DNA from: Bacteroidota bacterium
GTDB taxonomy: Bacteria; Bacteroidota; Rhodothermia; Rhodothermales; UBA10348
Direction of reading: 5' to 3'
Length of the DNA: 64,000 nucleotides
NCBI GenBank assembly: GCA_022567305.1
Contig: JADFHF010000018.1
Span: forward strand, 1-64,000
Under the pieces are notes generated by a model, which was not told the DNA's origin, did no database searches, and was given only the letters and a program-made list of their open reading frames with translations. The translations under genes were made by a program, and so were the position numbers. This document shows, in pieces, positions 50,277 through 60,179 of this stretch. Positions within the stretch are counted from its first letter, which is position 1; each line of letters starts with the position of its first letter.

Positions 50277-51074
50277 TTGACAATATTTCCCTGGGTCATA
50301 CCAATTCGGGCCGTCGATCTACTGGAGATCGTCATTGTAGCCTATGTGCTTTACAAGCTCTATGTGTGGATGCGGGGCACCATTGCCGTTCAAATTTTCG
50401 TGGGGATTCTTGCGCTTTATCTCATCCAGATATTCGTCACTGCGCTGGACATGACCATCTTTCGGGCAGTCTTTGGCTCAATCAGCGAGGTCTTCGTTCT
50501 CGCCGTGATCATACTTTTTCAACCGGAAATCAGACGCCTTCTATTGCTTCTTGGACAGAATCCTCTGGTAAGACGCTTCATGCAGTCGCCGGCGCAGATG
50601 GAGCGTATCTCCGACATTGTCCTGGCCGTTCAGGAAATGAGTGAAAAGAATATTGGTGCGCTGATTGTTTTCGAACGATCAACTGGACTCAGGAGCTATA
50701 TCGAGACCGGTACCGAATTGCAGGCGCAAGTAAGTCGTGATCTACTCGTTTCCATTTTCTATTCCCAAAATCCGCTGCATGACGGAGCCATAATCATCCG
50801 AGATGGGAGAATCGCTGCGGCAAGATGCGTTCTTCCCGTTTCGTCCAATGTGAAACCCGGATCCCAATTGGGTCTTCGTCATAGGGCAGCGGTTGGAATT
50901 ACGGAGTTGGCAGACGCCTTCGTGATTGTTGTTTCAGAAGAAACAGGGCGGATTTCTCTGGCGAGCGATGGCGAGCTGATGTCGGGGGTATCGATTGATC
51001 AGTTGCGGGAATATGTAACTGAGGCACTATCACCAAAACTTTCTGACGAGGCGGAACCGGCTGTAGTAGCCTAG
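50277..51074 (+). CDS. cdaA: Diadenylate cyclase CdaA (DisA_N domain)
   Basis: 265 residues from a TTG start; no ATG lies near the true N-terminus. Three membrane helices (about 8-30, 35-55 and 60-80) precede the DisA_N domain, which carries QNPLHDGAIIIRDGRIAAAR (the DGA motif) and LGLRHRAAVGITE (the RHR motif) for ATP. It makes cyclic di-AMP for osmotic and cell-wall control. It lies downstream of folP with a gap of about 125 bases, the arrangement seen across this phylum, and ahead of pcm. Confidence 0.93.
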   Translation: MTIFPWVIPIRAVDLLEIVIVAYVLYKLYVWMRGTIAVQIFVGILALYLIQIFVTALDMTIFRAVFGSISEVFVLAVIILFQPEIRRLLLLLGQNPLVRRFMQSPAQMERISDIVLAVQEMSEKNIGALIVFERSTGLRSYIETGTELQAQVSRDLLVSIFYSQNPLHDGAIIIRDGRIAAARCVLPVSSNVKPGSQLGLRHRAAVGITELADAFVIVVSEETGRISLASDGELMSGVSIDQLREYVTEALSPKLSDEAEPAVVA

Positions 51075-51782: not shown

Positions 51783-52076
51783 TCAAGCTCTGCCCGGGAT
51801 CCAACTCCCGTCCCGATGATCAACCCGGTCGATTACACCCACGATCGTTGCGTCCGTGGGAATGAGCAATGGCTTGAAGGGTACCGTCGCTTCTGTAGAC
51901 GACACATAGATAATTGTATCTCCAACACCTGAATCTACTGTATCCAACGCGACGATCGGATCGCCAACATCCGTTCCGCTAAACGCCATGGGCTGAACAA
52001 AAAGCAGTCTTTTATGGTTGAGAGACTCCACCTTTTGTGTTGCCCAAACGCTACCGATGATCTTTCCGAGGTTCAC
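51783..52076 (-). CDS. Microcompartment vertex protein (EutN/CcmL family), copy B
   Basis: 97 residues, the size of BMC pentamer proteins. MNLGKIIGSVWATQKVESLN opens the five-stranded barrel, followed by LLFVQPMAFSG, DPIVALDTVDSGVGDTIIYV and ATIVGVIDRVDHRDGSW. These proteins cap the twelve vertices of icosahedral shells. It starts 12 bases after copy A and is the last gene of the deoB run. No hexameric shell protein lies in the window. Confidence 0.9.
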   Translation of the reverse strand: MNLGKIIGSVWATQKVESLNHKRLLFVQPMAFSGTDVGDPIVALDTVDSGVGDTIIYVSSTEATVPFKPLLIPTDATIVGVIDRVDHRDGSWIPGRA

Positions 52077-52088
52077 AAACGTGCGGAT

Positions 52089-52367
52089 TTAGTTGGCGTC
52101 TCCGGTCACGTCAAGCTTATCGACGATGGCAACAATAACCGCATCGACGGGCTTGTCTCGGGTTAGATCGGTCTGACGGGCGCTGGACCCTTGAGCGAAA
52201 AGAACGGTCTCCCCGACTCCCGCTCCAACGCTGTCCACCGCTACGATGAACCGGTCCTTTAGCTTCCCATCCAGTTGAAGCTCCTGGACAAGTTGGAGTT
52301 TCATCCCCGTCAGTTGATCGTCCTTGCGCGTAGCCCAAACCGTTCCGATTACTTTTCCAAGTGTCAT
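52089..52367 (-). CDS. Microcompartment vertex protein (EutN/CcmL family), copy A
   Basis: 92 residues from the ATG at 52367 (an upstream extension overlapping deoB has no family character). MTLGKVIGTVWATRKDDQLT, MKLQLVQELQLDGKLKDRFI, AVDSVGAGVGETVLFAQGSS and DAVIVAIVDKLDVTG are the family blocks: the pentamer pore and edge strands. It resembles copy B only moderately, which points to two distinct vertex paralogues. It starts 46 bases after deoB. Confidence 0.92.
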   Translation of the reverse strand: MTLGKVIGTVWATRKDDQLTGMKLQLVQELQLDGKLKDRFIVAVDSVGAGVGETVLFAQGSSARQTDLTRDKPVDAVIVAIVDKLDVTGDAN

Positions 52368-52413
52368 TGCATTTCTCTGATGAGCGTGGGGAATCCTAGA
52401 AGAACCGGGATTT

Positions 52414-53580
52414 CTAATGGAATGATATACCGCCACAGTCGAATGGAATATCGAAATAGTCCACTAATGTTGCGGCATGATCACGAAACGAAGATCGAGT
52501 TCCCAGATCCGTCACGTCTTCCGATCCACAATATAAGAGCGGAACGTATTCGCGACTGTGATCCGTACTGGGTGTTGTGGGATCGTTTCCGTGGTCCGCT
52601 GTTATTACCATTCGCCCACCATCGGGTAACGCACCCAAAATCTCAGGCAATGCCAGGTCGAATTCTTCTAGCGCCGCTGCAAATCCTTCCGGATCATTTC
52701 GGTGCCCGTATTCCTGATCAAAATCGACTAAATTTGTCCAGATGAAAGTGGGCATATTTTGTTTCTCGAACTGAGCAATCCGATTCAACAGTTTTCGAAT
52801 TCCGTCCGAGTTGGACGTCGTCTCATGACTCTCCGAAAAACCAATTCCCCCGAATAAATCGAATATCTTGCCAATCGACACCGTGATGATATCATTTTCC
52901 TGCAGCGCCTTCTGCACGGTTTTGGCCGCTGGTAAAAGAGAGAAATCTTTTCTGGATGGAGAAATCCGCTCGTAATTGCCAGCTTCACCACGAAATGGTC
53001 GGGCAATAACGCGTCCTACGGCATGATCACCGATGCAGACCCGATCGCGGGCAATCGAACACAACTCATAGAGCGCCTCGAGTGGAATGACATCAACGTG
53101 CGCCGCAATCTGGAATACACTGTCAGCCGACGTGTACACGATGGGATATCCGGTCACCGCGTGCTCTTCGCCCAGCTCGGCCACGATGGTTGTGCCGGAA
53201 ATCGCCTTGTTTCCCAGGACTCCGGAGCAGTCTGTGTATGCAAGAAATGACTCGATCACTTCTTTGGGGAATCCATTAGGATAGGTGGGAAACGGATAGT
53301 CGAGTGAGAGCCCCGCCAATTCCCAGTGCCCCGTCGTGCTGTCTTTCCCCGCCGACGTTTCCAGCATTTTTCCGAAGCTCGCCGTCGGGTCAGAAACTGC
53401 ATCAACACCCTCCAACGGTCGTATTCTACCAAGACCCAGGCGTGTCAGGTTCGGGATAACGACGTGACGATATATACAGACATGCCCAAGCGTGTCGCTA
53501 CCAACGTCGCCATATTGCACCGAGTCCGGTTGCTCTCCAATCCCCACACCGTCCAGGATTATCGTAATGAATAGCTGCAC
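52414..53580 (-). CDS. deoB: Phosphopentomutase
   Basis: 388 residues, typical. The metal sites are visible: ILDGVGIGEQPDS near the start, TSAGKDSTTGHWELAG (the phosphorylated threonine lies here), NLVDFDQEYGHRNDPEGFAA and VITADHGNDPTTPSTDHSRE. It interconverts ribose or deoxyribose 1- and 5-phosphates. It lies directly upstream of two microcompartment vertex genes, matching the idea of sugar-phosphate-using compartments, in which deoxyribose phosphate chemistry recurs. Confidence 0.95.
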   Translation of the reverse strand: MQLFITIILDGVGIGEQPDSVQYGDVGSDTLGHVCIYRHVVIPNLTRLGLGRIRPLEGVDAVSDPTASFGKMLETSAGKDSTTGHWELAGLSLDYPFPTYPNGFPKEVIESFLAYTDCSGVLGNKAISGTTIVAELGEEHAVTGYPIVYTSADSVFQIAAHVDVIPLEALYELCSIARDRVCIGDHAVGRVIARPFRGEAGNYERISPSRKDFSLLPAAKTVQKALQENDIITVSIGKIFDLFGGIGFSESHETTSNSDGIRKLLNRIAQFEKQNMPTFIWTNLVDFDQEYGHRNDPEGFAAALEEFDLALPEILGALPDGGRMVITADHGNDPTTPSTDHSREYVPLLYCGSEDVTDLGTRSSFRDHAATLVDYFDIPFDCGGISFH

Positions 53581-53630: not shown

Positions 53631-54977
53631 TTACTCGACGATCGTACATTCGCCGGATTCAAATGCTTCCTGGAGAGCCGCCGTCGCATCCGCTCGCAAG
53701 TCGTCCGGCCCTTTGTGGCGCGGGTGCATCAATGCAACTCCAACGCTGACACCTCCTTGAAGTCGACCTCTTTCGTCTACAAATGACGTCTGAATTCGGC
53801 TCGCCCATGATGCGACTCTCTCGACTTCACCGTGATAGAACACGCCAAACGTGAGCTCTCCAAATTGCTCAACACGACTATGGTCAGTCACCGCCCGAAT
53901 TCGCGCTTCGAATGCCGATTCCAACTCGTGAATCTCTGTTACGCCCCTTTCACCCAATTCCTCACCGCGATTCAGATAAACGAGAGCGAGAGCGAGAGGA
54001 TGCGACCCGTTCCGGGCTCGTTTCATTTCGTCGTCGATAATCTCTCTTCGCTTCTTGGGTTCTGAATGAGTGGCCGTATGGTCCAAGTCTCCAGTGGCCG
54101 CGCACTCAAGAAGCGTCGCAAAGAGCCTGGCGTACTGCTCAAGCAGAGGCAGGGCGGAATCGAATTCCAGACCGGCTTCATCCATCGAATCGACGACCAG
54201 CAAGTAGGGAGTTTGAGATTTCGGCGACGTCACTGCAACCATGGCCACCTGACGCACAGAAATGGGTTCGAGATAGTAGCCGAGTTTCTGCTTCGGGAAT
54301 CCGTCCGCGCCCACCTTCGGATAAATGATCGGAATCAGCGCTTCATTCCCTACATGAAGCACTTCATTCGCCGCAAACGACCCTTGACTTCTGGCGTACG
54401 AATTCTGACTGACGATAGCCTCAACATGATATCGAAGTGGAAAGTTTTCCTGGCGAAGCAGGCATGCCGTATACGCGTTCATACCTGCCCGGAGAGACCG
54501 CAGCGCGGGAATCAATACTTCTGCATTCTGGTCCGGAGCGACTTCCGCAACCATGATCTTGGCTTTCGGCTTTCGCCTTCGGACCTCCCCGACAAAATCA
54601 CTGGTTGAATCAGGAGCGATTCCCGCGGTCTGAGTAGAAACGGGTTTTGCGGTTTTGGCACCGGCCAGAAACTCCAATTCCTGCTGCACTTCTTCTCGGT
54701 TCTCCGACGCGTCAGAGTGGGTAACGCTGTTGTCCTCACCGTTCGTTTTGGGTCGAATCTCCATAATTCCTAGCGAGCTCAATTCCTCGACAGGAACGTC
54801 CGGCGCCTTCATAAAGCTCTCTGGAATATCGCGATGGCGCTTTTTCATATTCACGGTCGTCAGAGTGGCGGAAGCTGCCAGGAGTCCGAGAGCCACGATT
54901 CCCAGCACCCATTGCTGAAGAGCGTAAGCTAAAATGATGGAGACGACGGAGAGAATGATGAGTAATACGCGAAGCAT
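53631..54977 (-). CDS. Membrane protein with GAF-like and degenerate GGDEF domains
   Basis: 448 residues from ATG 54977. Two membrane helices open it (about 2-40, LRVLLIILSVVSIILAYAL and VLGIVALGLLAASATL). A low-complexity linker is followed by a GAF-like domain (about 150-300, YTACLLRQENFPLRYHVEAI and YYLEPISVRQVAMVAV). The last 150 residues align with a diguanylate cyclase domain (MKRARNGSHPLALALVYLNR, then VEQFGELTFGVFYHGE where GGDEF is expected, and GGVSVGVALMHPRHKGPDDL). The GGDEF loop has become FGELTF, so it should be catalytically inactive and may be a sensor. It lies 50 bases upstream of deoB on the same strand. Confidence 0.72.
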   Translation of the reverse strand: MLRVLLIILSVVSIILAYALQQWVLGIVALGLLAASATLTTVNMKKRHRDIPESFMKAPDVPVEELSSLGIMEIRPKTNGEDNSVTHSDASENREEVQQELEFLAGAKTAKPVSTQTAGIAPDSTSDFVGEVRRRKPKAKIMVAEVAPDQNAEVLIPALRSLRAGMNAYTACLLRQENFPLRYHVEAIVSQNSYARSQGSFAANEVLHVGNEALIPIIYPKVGADGFPKQKLGYYLEPISVRQVAMVAVTSPKSQTPYLLVVDSMDEAGLEFDSALPLLEQYARLFATLLECAATGDLDHTATHSEPKKRREIIDDEMKRARNGSHPLALALVYLNRGEELGERGVTEIHELESAFEARIRAVTDHSRVEQFGELTFGVFYHGEVERVASWASRIQTSFVDERGRLQGGVSVGVALMHPRHKGPDDLRADATAALQEAFESGECTIVE

Positions 54978-55262
54978 TCGCGGACCTGCCGTGACCACAT
55001 GAAGACGTGACGTGCACTAGCCAAACAATCTACCGGCACCCTCAGGAAAAGTCAATACAGAATACCGGAGACATTGCGGAAAAACCAAGGACTTCGCCTG
55101 AGGTTTCAATCCTCCACCGCCGCGGACAAAGATCATGGCATGGCACTCTCGTTCCGGGCGAAAAATGTAGATTTTAACGTTTCCTATTATTGGTGTTGAG
55201 GCCTGGTGTGAACTGCTGATCTTGTGGTTCCAGGTCTGAAGGGATTCCCTCTCGTTTTACGT

Positions 55263-58200
55263 ATGACGCTTACCATCTGGCGGTCAAGGGCGGTTGTTGC
55301 GCAAAAAGTCATCGCTCTTGCTTACGTGTTTCTTCAATTCGCTGTTATTTCTGACAGCGAAGCGGCCGTCTATCCGATCGCTGACCGATCGAGCGAAGAT
55401 TGTGCTATGTGCTCGAGTGTCCCTTTCCCGGACCTCTTTTCCGGTGACAATATTCCCCATTCCTGGGGGGACCCCTTGTGTTATCTGGTCGCCGACAACA
55501 AAGGCTTTATGAATTCAGATGACGTCATCACCTTCGTCGATGAGGCCTTCGATGAAACAGCGCTTGGAAAAACCGGGACCAAACACATGGAGGCGATCGC
55601 TTTTGATCCCAATACCGGAATTCTTTACGGCGCGGATGCCGACCGTTTGGGATCGATTGATCTGACAACCGGGGCCTTCACAGAGATAGGTCCCTTCGGG
55701 TCCGGCGATGGCGTTATAGGGGTGCTCAGCTTCAATGATATCGACGGGCTCACGTTTGATCCATTCAGCGGAATCATGTATGCCTCTGTCCGGCGAAGCG
55801 GCATCGACAAACTCATTCAGGTTGACCTGGCGACGGGTGCCGCAATCGTTGACGCCTTCGGACCCGGACTCACGTACGTCCCCATACCGCCGATCAACAA
55901 TCTCGACGACATCGATGATATCGCCGTCTCCTCCGTCGACGGTACGATGTATGCCATCATGAATGAGAACGGGAAGATGAGTCGGCTGATTACGATCGAT
56001 AAAACGACCGGAGTATCGACGGACGTCACCGATCTCGACGTCGAGAATGTTGAGGGTTTGGGCTTTCACCCGGACGGCCGATTTCTGGGCGTACTCGGGA
56101 ACGGCGGGCAGAAACTCCTCGAAATTGATCCCTCGGACGGCACCACAACGGTGGTCGCCTATCTTGGAATCAACGGAAACAAGGACTACGAAGGGGTTGC
56201 CTGCCTTACCGAAGAGCAGAATCGAATTGAAGGATCGGTTCTGCTGAAGAAAAAGATCGACTTAGAGCTCGAAAAGAGCGCCACTGGGCCCCAGCCAAAC
56301 CTCGACGTCGCCTATGTTCTTTCTCTTCTCTTCAACGCGACGCCTCATGCTACGGCTCCCAATCCGAATTCAGGAGTTCCTGGGGTAGGCATCAAGGTCA
56401 ACCTGTTCGCCGACAACAACGAAGACGGGGTTCTGGACGGGGGAGATTCGTTCCTGGCCTCGACGCTCACCGACGGAGCAGGGGGCTACGCATTCGACAT
56501 CAGCGCCGTCGGTCACTTTGTCGTCCTGGTTGACCTGGCAACGGTTCCGTTCCTTGCCGTTCTACCTTTAGACCATCAAGAGACGGCGGTCTTCGTCGGT
56601 TTCGGTGAAACGGATACCGGCAATGATTTTGTGTTCTTCTCTTTTACGGATGCCACCGGAATTATTGTTTCAGACTTGCTTCCGTCCGGGGTCACGTTTG
56701 TTTCCTCCTCGGCTACGCACGGAAGTTATCACCCAAATACCGGTTTCTGGACGGTAGGAGGGCTTTCGCCAGGCGATCATGCTGAGCTTACCATCAACGT
56801 AACGCAGCAAGGCCTCACCCAAGAAAACTGCGCCGAGGTCAAGCGCGCCGATCCTGACGACCTGGACTCGACGCCACACAATGGCGACCCCCAGGAAGAC
56901 GACTACGATTGCGTGACCACTGAACGCGATCCAGAAATTGACTTGGAGCTTGAAAAATCCGTGGACGACCCGATGCCCGAGTCGTCAGAATCAGTTGATT
57001 ATCTACTTCGCGTAACGAATTCAAATTCGGCCAATTCCATTGCAACCGGTGTAATCGCAGTAGATTATCTTCCAAGCGACGTTACCTTCGTCGAAACCAT
57101 TCCGGTCGGTGGCATATTCGACGCAGCATCAAAGACGGTCACCTGGGAAATAGGGGGGCTCGGCATCGGTGAGAGCGTCGAAATAATCATCCGAATCCTG
57201 GCTCCGTCGTCGGGGACCCACAGAAACTGCGCTGAGATCTTCGAAGCCAATGAAGGCGACGTGGACTCCGAGCCGGGCAACGGGGTCGACAACGCTGAAG
57301 ACGATCAGGACTGTGCAAGCTTCACCGTTCAAGAACCCGTTCTTGGCGAGATCGGCGACCGCGTATTCAATGATTTGAACAGCAATGGGTTGGAGGACCC
57401 GGGCGATCCCGGTTTGCCGGGTGTTTTGCTCCGTCTGTACGAAGGAGCGTGCGGACCAACCGGTGCACCGCTCGCCGCTCAAGTAAGTGATCCAACGGGG
57501 GCCTATCTGTTCACAGACCTTCCCGCCGGTCTTTACTGTGTCGACCCGGTGGATTCGTCGATCCCGTTCGGCTTTGTGCTGACCACGGCCAATGATCCTA
57601 TGACGGTTGATCTTGGCGCGGGAGAACTATTTCTGGACGCCGACTTCGGATACGTGGCTCAGCCTGAATTATTTGAGGCTGATTTGGATCTCACCAAAAC
57701 CGTCTCGAGTTCCTCGCCGGCTTTGAATGAGATCGTCACATTTACCATTACGCTATCGAACAAAGGACCCGCGGATGCCACGAATGTAACGGTACGCGAC
57801 GTGATCCCCGTCGGACTGGTCTATATCGACGCCCAACCGTCGCAGGGTTCCTTCGACACCCAGAACGGTTTTTGGGGTATTGGGGAGCTTCCGGTGGATG
57901 CTTCTGTTGAGCTCAAAATTCGTGTTCAGGTCGTGATTCAGAATATGATCGAGAATATCGCTCAGGTCATCTTCGTGGATCAACACGATCCGGATTCGAC
58001 GCCGAGCAACGGGATTCCGTCCGAAGACGATCAGGACAATGCTATCATCGAAGCTCGTGGTCCGGGTGGCGTGGGCGACATCATTCGCGTGGAATGCACC
58101 GATGTGGGAACGATCAATGCCTTGGCCTACGATCCCGTACGTGACCTTATCATTGCGGGTTCAGAGGGCGGACGAATCCACGTGTCGACCGATTCCGGGA

Positions 58201-60179
58201 TGAATTGGCCTCCGTTTCTAGAAACTTCCGGGAAGGCCCCCATTCGGGATATCGTGATTTCCGCCTCCGGGTCGGCGTACGCTGGAACGTTTGGTGACGG
58301 CGCTTATGCCTCCTTTGATGGAGGGACGAATTGGGCGTCTATCGGCCCGCCAACAGAAACCATCAATGACTTGGACATCGACGATGCCACAGAAACCGTG
58401 TTTGCCGCGGCTTTTGGACGCATCTCCGTATTTGACGGTGTCGTTTGGTCCGACCTTGGTGCGGCGACCAGCCCCTTCGGTGGACGTCAGGTTCTTTCGG
58501 TCGCGTTCGATGCGGCCACGGGCGATGTATTTGCCGCAGCAGAAGGCATCGGCGTGAACCGACATAGCAGCGGTGTCTGGACCGCGGTCAACTCGGGACT
58601 TCCCACAGGAAAGGTCAATGTATTGTTCAGCGGCCCTGGCTATGAGCTCTTGGCCGGTACGAACAACGATGGTGTCTTCGTTTTCACCGGCGGAACGTGG
58701 GCGCGGTTCGGAGCGGGCTTGAATAACGAGCCCATCGAATCGCTGGGATCCGGGCCGAATGGCGAGCTCCTTGCAGGAGCCCGTGAGTCAGCAGCCTACT
58801 TCTTCAATTTCATCACCGACACCTGGCTTTCGATTGGAACTCTACCCATTTACACGGTAACGTCCATTACGGCCAACGCAATAGGCGAGGTGTACGCAGG
58901 CGCTCCCGGAGAAGGCATCTATCGGATCGAGGACACGGATTTCGACGGGATCCCGGATCTCGCCCATCAAGTCGCAAACTTTTTGACGACGGCCGTCATC
59001 CAGGATCTCGTAGTCACTCCGTCAGGTGAACTCTTCGCGGCGACCTACGGCTACGGCGTTCTGTTTTCGAACGACGGTGGAAAGTGCTGGACCCGATTGA
59101 ATCGCGGACTTGAGAACCTCTGGGTTTTTGCGATCGCTCGCCGGCATGACGGCGTCCTGTTTATTGGTGTCTGGGCCGACAGCAAAGGCGGCATCTGGCG
59201 CTCTGACGACGATGGGCGAAATTGGGAATTCGTCGCTTTTGCGAATCGACAAATCGTCTCGCTCGCCATCGATCCCAACGACGATGACATCATGTACGCC
59301 GGTGTCAACCTGAGCGGAACGGGATCGATCTACCGGACACTGGATGGCGGACAGACATGGACCGTACTGGAATCATTCACCGAGCCCGTGTGGTCCATCG
59401 CCATCAGCCCGTTCGACGCCCAACGCGTGGTGATCGGCACACTGGGTGACGGCGTTTGGGAATCTACCGACGGCGGCGCCTCTTTTGCCCAGATCGGCTC
59501 TCCAGCAAATGGATTGCAAAACGACGCGGTCTTCGAGTTGGCGTTTGCTCCTCTCGGAAGCTCGTACGCAGGCGAACCGTTCGCCGGTACGGGAGCAGGG
59601 GTGTATCAATTCGATGCGATTACGGAAACGTGGTCGCTCTTTGGCGCAGGAAGTCAAGGCCACGAAATCAGAGTTCTGGCGTTCGTGGGACCTAATATTT
59701 TCGCTGGCACATGGAGCGCCGGGGTCCTCAAGTATGATCCCGGAACCGATACCTGGGAAGAATTTGTACTGCCCTATATACCCGTCGTTGCATTCGTCGT
59801 ACACCCGGGCACAGAAACCCTGGTCATCGGGACGTGGGGTCATGGGCTCTATCTGGCTCCGAATGTCGTCGTTTCGACAGATATTGATCAACCATTTGTA
59901 GAAAACGATCTGCCCGGAAGCTTTGAATTGCGTCAGAATTACCCCAATCCGTTCAACCCCAGCACGACCGTTCCGTTTGAAATCCATGCGACGGGTCACT
60001 ATCGAGTTTCCGTTTTCGATCTACTCGGACGTGAAATCGGCGTCCTGCTCGACCAGGTGTTACCGGCTGGTAGCTATTCTGTCACCTGGGAAGCGGGGAA
60101 TCGTCCAAGCGGGACATATATGATTCGGATGGCGTCCGACGGGCGTATGGTCTCGCGCGTTGTGGCTCTACTGAAGTAG
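55263..60179 (+). CDS. Giant T9SS-exported surface protein: propeller, DUF11/SdrD-like and BNR domains
   Basis: About 1638 residues from the ATG at 55263 (a GTG at 55224 is possible). After a signal region, a propeller covers about 60-320 (LYGADADRLGSIDLTTGAF, MYAIMNENGKMSRLITIDKT). The next domains are DUF11 repeats (EIDLELEKSVDDPMPESSES; ADLDLTKTVSSSSPALNEIV) with an SdrD B-type domain between (GEIGDRVFNDLNSNGLEDPG). From about 950 come many BNR/sortilin-type propeller repeats (STDSGMNWPPF, SNDGGKCWTRLNRG). The end is a Por sorting domain (NYPNPFNPSTTVPFEI, FDLLGREIGVLL, SGTYMIRM). A secreted, cell-surface adhesin or scaffold is likely. Confidence 0.85.
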   Translation: MTLTIWRSRAVVAQKVIALAYVFLQFAVISDSEAAVYPIADRSSEDCAMCSSVPFPDLFSGDNIPHSWGDPLCYLVADNKGFMNSDDVITFVDEAFDETALGKTGTKHMEAIAFDPNTGILYGADADRLGSIDLTTGAFTEIGPFGSGDGVIGVLSFNDIDGLTFDPFSGIMYASVRRSGIDKLIQVDLATGAAIVDAFGPGLTYVPIPPINNLDDIDDIAVSSVDGTMYAIMNENGKMSRLITIDKTTGVSTDVTDLDVENVEGLGFHPDGRFLGVLGNGGQKLLEIDPSDGTTTVVAYLGINGNKDYEGVACLTEEQNRIEGSVLLKKKIDLELEKSATGPQPNLDVAYVLSLLFNATPHATAPNPNSGVPGVGIKVNLFADNNEDGVLDGGDSFLASTLTDGAGGYAFDISAVGHFVVLVDLATVPFLAVLPLDHQETAVFVGFGETDTGNDFVFFSFTDATGIIVSDLLPSGVTFVSSSATHGSYHPNTGFWTVGGLSPGDHAELTINVTQQGLTQENCAEVKRADPDDLDSTPHNGDPQEDDYDCVTTERDPEIDLELEKSVDDPMPESSESVDYLLRVTNSNSANSIATGVIAVDYLPSDVTFVETIPVGGIFDAASKTVTWEIGGLGIGESVEIIIRILAPSSGTHRNCAEIFEANEGDVDSEPGNGVDNAEDDQDCASFTVQEPVLGEIGDRVFNDLNSNGLEDPGDPGLPGVLLRLYEGACGPTGAPLAAQVSDPTGAYLFTDLPAGLYCVDPVDSSIPFGFVLTTANDPMTVDLGAGELFLDADFGYVAQPELFEADLDLTKTVSSSSPALNEIVTFTITLSNKGPADATNVTVRDVIPVGLVYIDAQPSQGSFDTQNGFWGIGELPVDASVELKIRVQVVIQNMIENIAQVIFVDQHDPDSTPSNGIPSEDDQDNAIIEARGPGGVGDIIRVECTDVGTINALAYDPVRDLIIAGSEGGRIHVSTDSGMNWPPFLETSGKAPIRDIVISASGSAYAGTFGDGAYASFDGGTNWASIGPPTETINDLDIDDATETVFAAAFGRISVFDGVVWSDLGAATSPFGGRQVLSVAFDAATGDVFAAAEGIGVNRHSSGVWTAVNSGLPTGKVNVLFSGPGYELLAGTNNDGVFVFTGGTWARFGAGLNNEPIESLGSGPNGELLAGARESAAYFFNFITDTWLSIGTLPIYTVTSITANAIGEVYAGAPGEGIYRIEDTDFDGIPDLAHQVANFLTTAVIQDLVVTPSGELFAATYGYGVLFSNDGGKCWTRLNRGLENLWVFAIARRHDGVLFIGVWADSKGGIWRSDDDGRNWEFVAFANRQIVSLAIDPNDDDIMYAGVNLSGTGSIYRTLDGGQTWTVLESFTEPVWSIAISPFDAQRVVIGTLGDGVWESTDGGASFAQIGSPANGLQNDAVFELAFAPLGSSYAGEPFAGTGAGVYQFDAITETWSLFGAGSQGHEIRVLAFVGPNIFAGTWSAGVLKYDPGTDTWEEFVLPYIPVVAFVVHPGTETLVIGTWGHGLYLAPNVVVSTDIDQPFVENDLPGSFELRQNYPNPFNPSTTVPFEIHATGHYRVSVFDLLGREIGVLLDQVLPAGSYSVTWEAGNRPSGTYMIRMASDGRMVSRVVALLK

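Follow-up and report, generated by a model that had tools for sequence, protein, structure and literature searches.

Introduction

The locus analysed here, in which the phosphopentomutase gene deoB stands beside two genes for pentameric vertex proteins (BMC-P) of a bacterial microcompartment (BMC) shell, has its closest described counterparts in the FRAG and SPU types of microcompartment and in that of Haliangium ochraceum. It lies within a 64,000-nucleotide stretch (the window; positions 1 to 64,000 of contig JADFHF010000018.1, assembly GCA_022567305.1) of a Bacteroidota bacterium of the order Rhodothermales. FRAG microcompartments (FRAG1-7) are widespread in uncultivated phyla and had no function in the 2021 catalogue, whose main text describes them as having scattered shell genes, a BMC-P triplet and an unassigned function, and reports them from Ignavibacteriae and related phyla, Gemmatimonadetes and Planctomycetes (Sutter et al. 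2021, PMC8217296). The authors expected, as stated there, that environmental correlation would eventually reveal this function. For the SPU type, a pathway for DNA-derived sugars has been proposed (Axen et al. 2014, PMC4207490; main text of Sutter et al. 2021, PMC8217296), and the Haliangium ochraceum (HO) microcompartment has three BMC-T genes (PMC4207490). In the literature searched, including the main text of PMC8217296, neither a deoB linkage nor DeoC cargo was found for FRAG, and publications on phosphopentomutase and microcompartments, judged by title, held incidental mentions only.

The deoB locus and its place among described types

From gene content, co-occurrence and terminal extensions, we put at roughly 77% the probability that the genome encodes a dispersed FRAG-class deoxyribose-5-phosphate metabolosome of which the window locus is one fragment. 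The locus comprises four genes:

53631..54998, minus strand: 455-amino-acid (aa) protein with two predicted membrane helices, GAF-like and degenerate GGDEF-like (AlphaFold model and Foldseek)
52414..53580, minus strand: deoB, phosphopentomutase, 388 aa (PRK05362 E 2e-137, TIGR01696 E 1.4e-121, Pfam PF01676)
52089..52367, minus strand: BMC-P a, EutN/CcmL pentameric shell vertex protein, 92 aa, ATG start at 52367 (PF03319 E 4.6e-31)
51783..52076, minus strand: BMC-P b, second, distinct EutN/CcmL vertex protein, 97 aa, GTG start at 52076 (PF03319 E 8.2e-25)

An initial annotation, drawn up from the sequence of the window alone, had described a satellite locus of deoB followed by two EutN/CcmL genes. 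The open reading frame (ORF) coordinates and the PF03319 and TIGR01696/PRK05362 matches bear out this order and the gaps of 46 and 12 bases between the three genes, but the operon is larger than was then supposed, starting with the 455-aa gene 50 bases upstream of deoB. The term satellite did not hold either: the genome has no main locus, the whole system being scattered. The nearest solved structure is 5v74/6mzx for BMC-P a (E 1e-24) and 5v74 for BMC-P b (E 3.1e-10), which we take to be an H. ochraceum vertex protein.

Like the FRAG types, as the main text of PMC8217296 presents them, the genome has its shell genes dispersed among several places, three BMC-P and an aldehyde dehydrogenase (AldDH) with no signature enzyme beside it, and relatives of BMC-P a were found in the same groups as published FRAG; the likeness was judged by gene dispersal and the BMC-P triplet. 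With the SPU type it shares the proposed chemistry of a DeoC aldolase and an acylating AldDH acting on deoxyribose-5-phosphate from DNA (PMC4207490), and a DeoC of the SPU-type aldolase family (PF01791), bearing an encapsulation-peptide-like extension, co-occurs with the shell genes; BMC-P relatives also stand with deoC and rpiB in loci of Planctomycetota and Gemmatimonadota. Unlike in SPU, deoC and the AldDH gene are unlinked to shell genes in the Rhodothermales genome, BMC-T is missing and the linked enzyme is deoB, not rpiB; SPU-type clustering of deoC and rpiB with shell genes in a single locus was not seen, with deoC on contig C45 and rpiB at no shell locus read. The BMC-P triplet is shared with HO, from which the genome differs in lacking BMC-T and in having a mutase, not an aldolase, beside two of its BMC-P genes. 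What would be new is thus a likely deoxyribose function for a FRAG-like shell, the dispersed shell with a BMC-P triplet being already known.

Shell genes and candidate cargo enzymes

No BMC-H or BMC-T gene was found near the deoB/BMC-P locus, and the expectation that the hexamers are encoded elsewhere proved right: a search of the genome for PF00936 found two adjacent BMC-H genes on contig C85 (G000:C85:23965-24574), and a third BMC-P gene lies on contig C57 (G000:C57:38340-38597). The same genome search found no further PF00936 or PF03319 gene, and no BMC-T, both PF00936 matches being single-domain ORFs of 97 and 155 aa. The shell genes thus occupy three loci (contigs C82, C85 and C57), and such loci lie far apart also in complete or near-complete genomes (e.g. 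G036, G037 and G056). The longer BMC-H (155 aa; L016:9253-9720) carries a conserved C-terminal motif, VRELRALAR...GREIARANK, which we called SAP/Rho_N-like by eye, Pfam matching the BMC domain only; this tail recalls the extended shell protein EutK.

Among 60 relatives from the order, PF03319 was found in 39 and PF00936 in 38, the sole mismatch being an 89%-complete bin (G020). BMC-H and BMC-P genes thus occur together in the genome itself and in 38 of its 39 shell-bearing relatives. Within the family, BMC-P was present in all 26 other members searched and BMC-H in 25 of them. The commonest set, found in most family members, is two BMC-H and three BMC-P; the family departures from it (G003, G019, G020 and G022) are incomplete or contaminated bins or partial matches, and one further genome (G030) has a single BMC-P.

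The deoxyribose-phosphate aldolase DeoC (contig C45, 287 aa; TIGR00126 E 2.4e-82 over residues 67-283) is encoded apart from the shell genes and has about 65 additional N-terminal residues, beginning MNQEEKNELIRRLEKRFGR. About 17 residues at the start of this extension are conserved among relatives (consensus MNEQEKQQIVERLEARY), and the linker behind them is variable. The encapsulation-peptide-like extension was present in all 35 shell-bearing genomes with a readable DeoC N-terminus; in G041 it lies on a separate fragment, and three incomplete shell-bearing genomes (G006, G012 and G014) gave no DeoC match. Seven shell-less genomes have a close DeoC, which in five of them has no extension, in G044 a similar one and in G059 a different one. 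The DeoC tree lacked resolution, a single clade of shell-associated DeoC not being rejected (p-AU 0.47).

The AldDH (contig C93, 549 aa counted from M30 of the ORF) has its best NCBIfam match in TIGR02518 (acetylating; E 5.3e-162) and its nearest solved structure in 5j78, an acetylating acetaldehyde dehydrogenase (E 7.4e-143). By these family and structure matches it is counted as a predicted coenzyme A (CoA)-acylating enzyme, a core part of classical metabolosomes. An orthologue was found in 36 of 39 shell-bearing genomes versus none of 21 shell-less ones; the three exceptions are a fragment at a contig edge (G047) and two incomplete genomes (G021 and G030). In all 31 sequences read, its C-terminal end is formed by a conserved peptide of helix-like character (consensus SLSEAEIDRLIARFR), preceded by a variable linker that contains a second conserved segment, WMDEIEARLRARAG. 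Nine other Aldedh matches in the genome showed no terminal extension among those read.

Taken together, these data suggest a shell assembled from two BMC-H (one with the SAP/Rho_N-like tail) and three BMC-P encoded at three loci, with DeoC and AldDH, encoded at two more, as its likely lumen enzymes, the former targeted by an N-terminal and the latter by a C-terminal encapsulation-peptide-like helix. Deoxynucleosides from DNA would yield deoxyribose-1-phosphate, which DeoB would convert into deoxyribose-5-phosphate, and the AldDH would turn trapped acetaldehyde into acetyl-CoA. The flux would run in this direction, with DeoB probably acting mainly outside the shell. The initial annotation had pointed to ribose or deoxyribose phosphate chemistry; the extensions of DeoC and of the acylating AldDH speak for the deoxyribose side of that proposal, as do the loci with a vertex triplet beside deoC and rpiB described below. 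A named substrate, two candidate cargo enzymes with putative targeting peptides and a linked feeder enzyme make the function of FRAG directly testable. The arrangement also suggests that the parts list of an organelle can stay conserved while its genes scatter over five loci, and that co-occurrence and terminal extensions can reveal cargo where gene clusters fail.

Strength of the evidence

What is read directly from the genomes is which genes are present, how they co-occur, the terminal extensions and the conserved linkage of deoB with BMC-P; shell formation and the encapsulation of DeoC and AldDH are what we infer from them, and this counts against the proposed metabolosome together with the following points. 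The AldDH scores 540 bits versus the curated TIGR02518 cut-off of 620. Unlike classical metabolosomes, with which it has the AldDH in common, the system comes without the PduL-type phosphotransacylase (PF06130; 0 of 60 genomes), leaving CoA recycling unexplained. G044 has a similar, encapsulation-peptide-like DeoC extension with neither shell genes nor an AldDH orthologue, and G059 a different 43-aa DeoC extension, also without shell genes; the G044 protein (L178, G044:C196; genome 83% complete) is possibly a relic of a lost compartment or reflects an assembly gap. deoB is missing from G036, a complete genome, and from G047, both with shell genes and the DeoC extension and the former also with AldDH, so that deoB is dispensable. 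When trait changes were mapped on a tree of the order built from a near-universal AAA ATPase, with the states of the DeoC extension and AldDH entered per genome and the G047 AldDH scored present from its fragment, shell and AldDH changed together at all six inferred changes, but only two of the six independent pairs lie on well-supported branches and a sign test cannot reach 0.05. The association of shell and cargo inside the order is therefore consistent but based on few independent events. Lastly, the amphipathic-helix signal of the peptides is modest: against a column-shuffle null neither the DeoC nor the AldDH peptides were significant on the Eisenberg scale, and a binary hydrophobic/other scale, applied second, after that null result, gave P values of about 0.04 for DeoC, 0.01 for the Ignavibacteria-group DeoC and 0.13 for AldDH. 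The case for targeting peptides is built on their position, conservation, variable linkers and co-occurrence.

The link between deoB and the vertex genes

At least 80 named loci were among the matches listed when BMC-P a was used as query, with a bias to the closest relatives; 57 of these 80 have deoB ahead of BMC-P a on the same strand. The linkage, whose loss in relatives would have refuted the initial annotation, is kept among relatives and also in further classes and phyla: the deoB/BMC-P/BMC-P arrangement recurs in Ignavibacteria, Melioribacteraceae and Calditrichota, and in other families of the order the distance between deoB and the vertex genes reaches 8 kb. The DeoC of Ignavibacteria, Kryptonia and Calditrichota has another N-terminal peptide of the same kind (e.g. 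MSTTIDKIVSQVFTEK). In two Planctomycetota loci (L291 and L303) rpiB is intercalated among the three vertex genes, with deoC behind them, and a Gemmatimonadota locus (L296) has the order cdd, BMC-P, rpiB, BMC-P, BMC-P, deoC, deoA; these gene identities, except for DeoC and BMC-P, come from reading the translations. Both look like the published SPU type.

This tight operon with two vertex proteins, conserved over several classes and phyla, would be expected if DeoB were itself a lumen enzyme, deoxyribose-1-phosphate entering the shell and mutase and aldolase both working inside. We consider this unlikely. The NCBIfam model covers residues 4-384 of the 388 of DeoB, with no N- or C-terminal extension visible and hence no room for an encapsulation peptide; moreover, some genomes with a shell lack deoB, and 7 of 21 without one have it. 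DeoB is probably a linked feeder acting from the cytosol rather than cargo, since neither terminus is extended and the gene is lacking in part of the shell-bearing genomes. Of the tie between deoB and the compartment that had been proposed, the linkage thus stands, whereas the search for a peptide and the shell-bearing genomes without deoB (G036 and G047) speak against a role as cargo.

The persistence of the shell without deoB in these two genomes could also mean that it houses another aldehyde-producing pathway, with AldDH at its core and DeoC and DeoB associated for some other reason. The signature enzyme of this genome is not beside the shell hexamers, and the main text of PMC8217296 describes the FRAG types as having no obvious signature enzyme. 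We hold such a pathway to be quite improbable, given that the DeoC extension is found in all shell-bearing genomes that could be read but is lacking from most shell-less ones, that Ignavibacteria, Kryptonia and Calditrichota have an extended DeoC too, and that the same vertex triplet lies beside deoC and rpiB in Planctomycetota and Gemmatimonadota.

Two conserved neighbours of the third BMC-P gene were considered as compartment parts and rejected. The AAA ATPase used for the tree (L017:10104-11996) occurs in 58 of the 60 genomes, including nearly all shell-less ones, and is therefore not compartment-specific; this near-universal protein has a 350-aa N-terminal region of unassigned kind, and its gene adjoins that of a class I aldolase. 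The latter, which matches PF01791, is by its NCBIfam match (E 3.7e-197) an FbaB-like enzyme for fructose-bisphosphate and not a DeoC.

Around the deoB locus of Rhodothermales, folP, cdaA and pcm are widely conserved too, as would be expected if deoB and BMC-P were adjacent by inherited gene order, with no functional meaning. In loci from outside the order these three genes are absent while deoB is still found ahead of BMC-P a and b (57 of the 80 loci listed, counting all groups), which makes this explanation highly improbable. That the vertex proteins act without any shell, as the lack of a hexamer gene at the window locus taken alone might suggest, can be dismissed almost entirely, BMC-H and BMC-P occurring together in 38 of 39 shell-bearing genomes with an incomplete bin as the exception.

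The GAF/degenerate-GGDEF protein

The 455-aa protein had no Pfam match of its own, but its AlphaFold model (mean pLDDT 71) matched diguanylate cyclases in Foldseek (best E 3.5e-10), and GAF and GGDEF domains (PF13185/PF00990) were confirmed by Pfam in four homologues. An iterated profile found homologues in 57 of the 80 loci listed, nearly all directly upstream of deoB or, where deoB is missing, of BMC-P a, as in Kryptonia, Chloroherpetonaceae and others. In Rhodothermales, Ignavibacteria and Kryptonia the protein thus shares an operon with deoB/BMC-P. Every member of the family has a degenerate GGDEF motif; the one match with an intact motif (L292) lies downstream of its locus and was taken as unrelated. 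We advance tentatively, at somewhat less than even odds, that FRAG in Rhodothermales, Ignavibacteria, Kryptonia and Calditrichota is a declustered, DNA-scavenging deoxyribose organelle whose vertex proteins would be produced together with a membrane-anchored GAF/GGDEF protein that lacks catalytic activity and serves as ligand sensor or as positioner or regulator of the compartment.

Other genes near the shell loci

A CdaA-like cyclic-di-AMP synthase gene (50277-51074, plus strand) is convergent with the BMC-P pair in the window, and a weakly YbbR-like gene (L016:8236-9246, minus strand; E 0.0022, below the cut-off) follows the BMC-H pair in 20 of 21 loci. In other bacteria the CdaA and YbbR genes usually adjoin, and their separation here may be worth a look. 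On the other side of the operon, a plus-strand gene (55224-60179) encodes a 1651-aa protein ending in a tail of the NPFNPST...FDLLGREI type, which looks like the secretion-sorting domain of this bacterial group.
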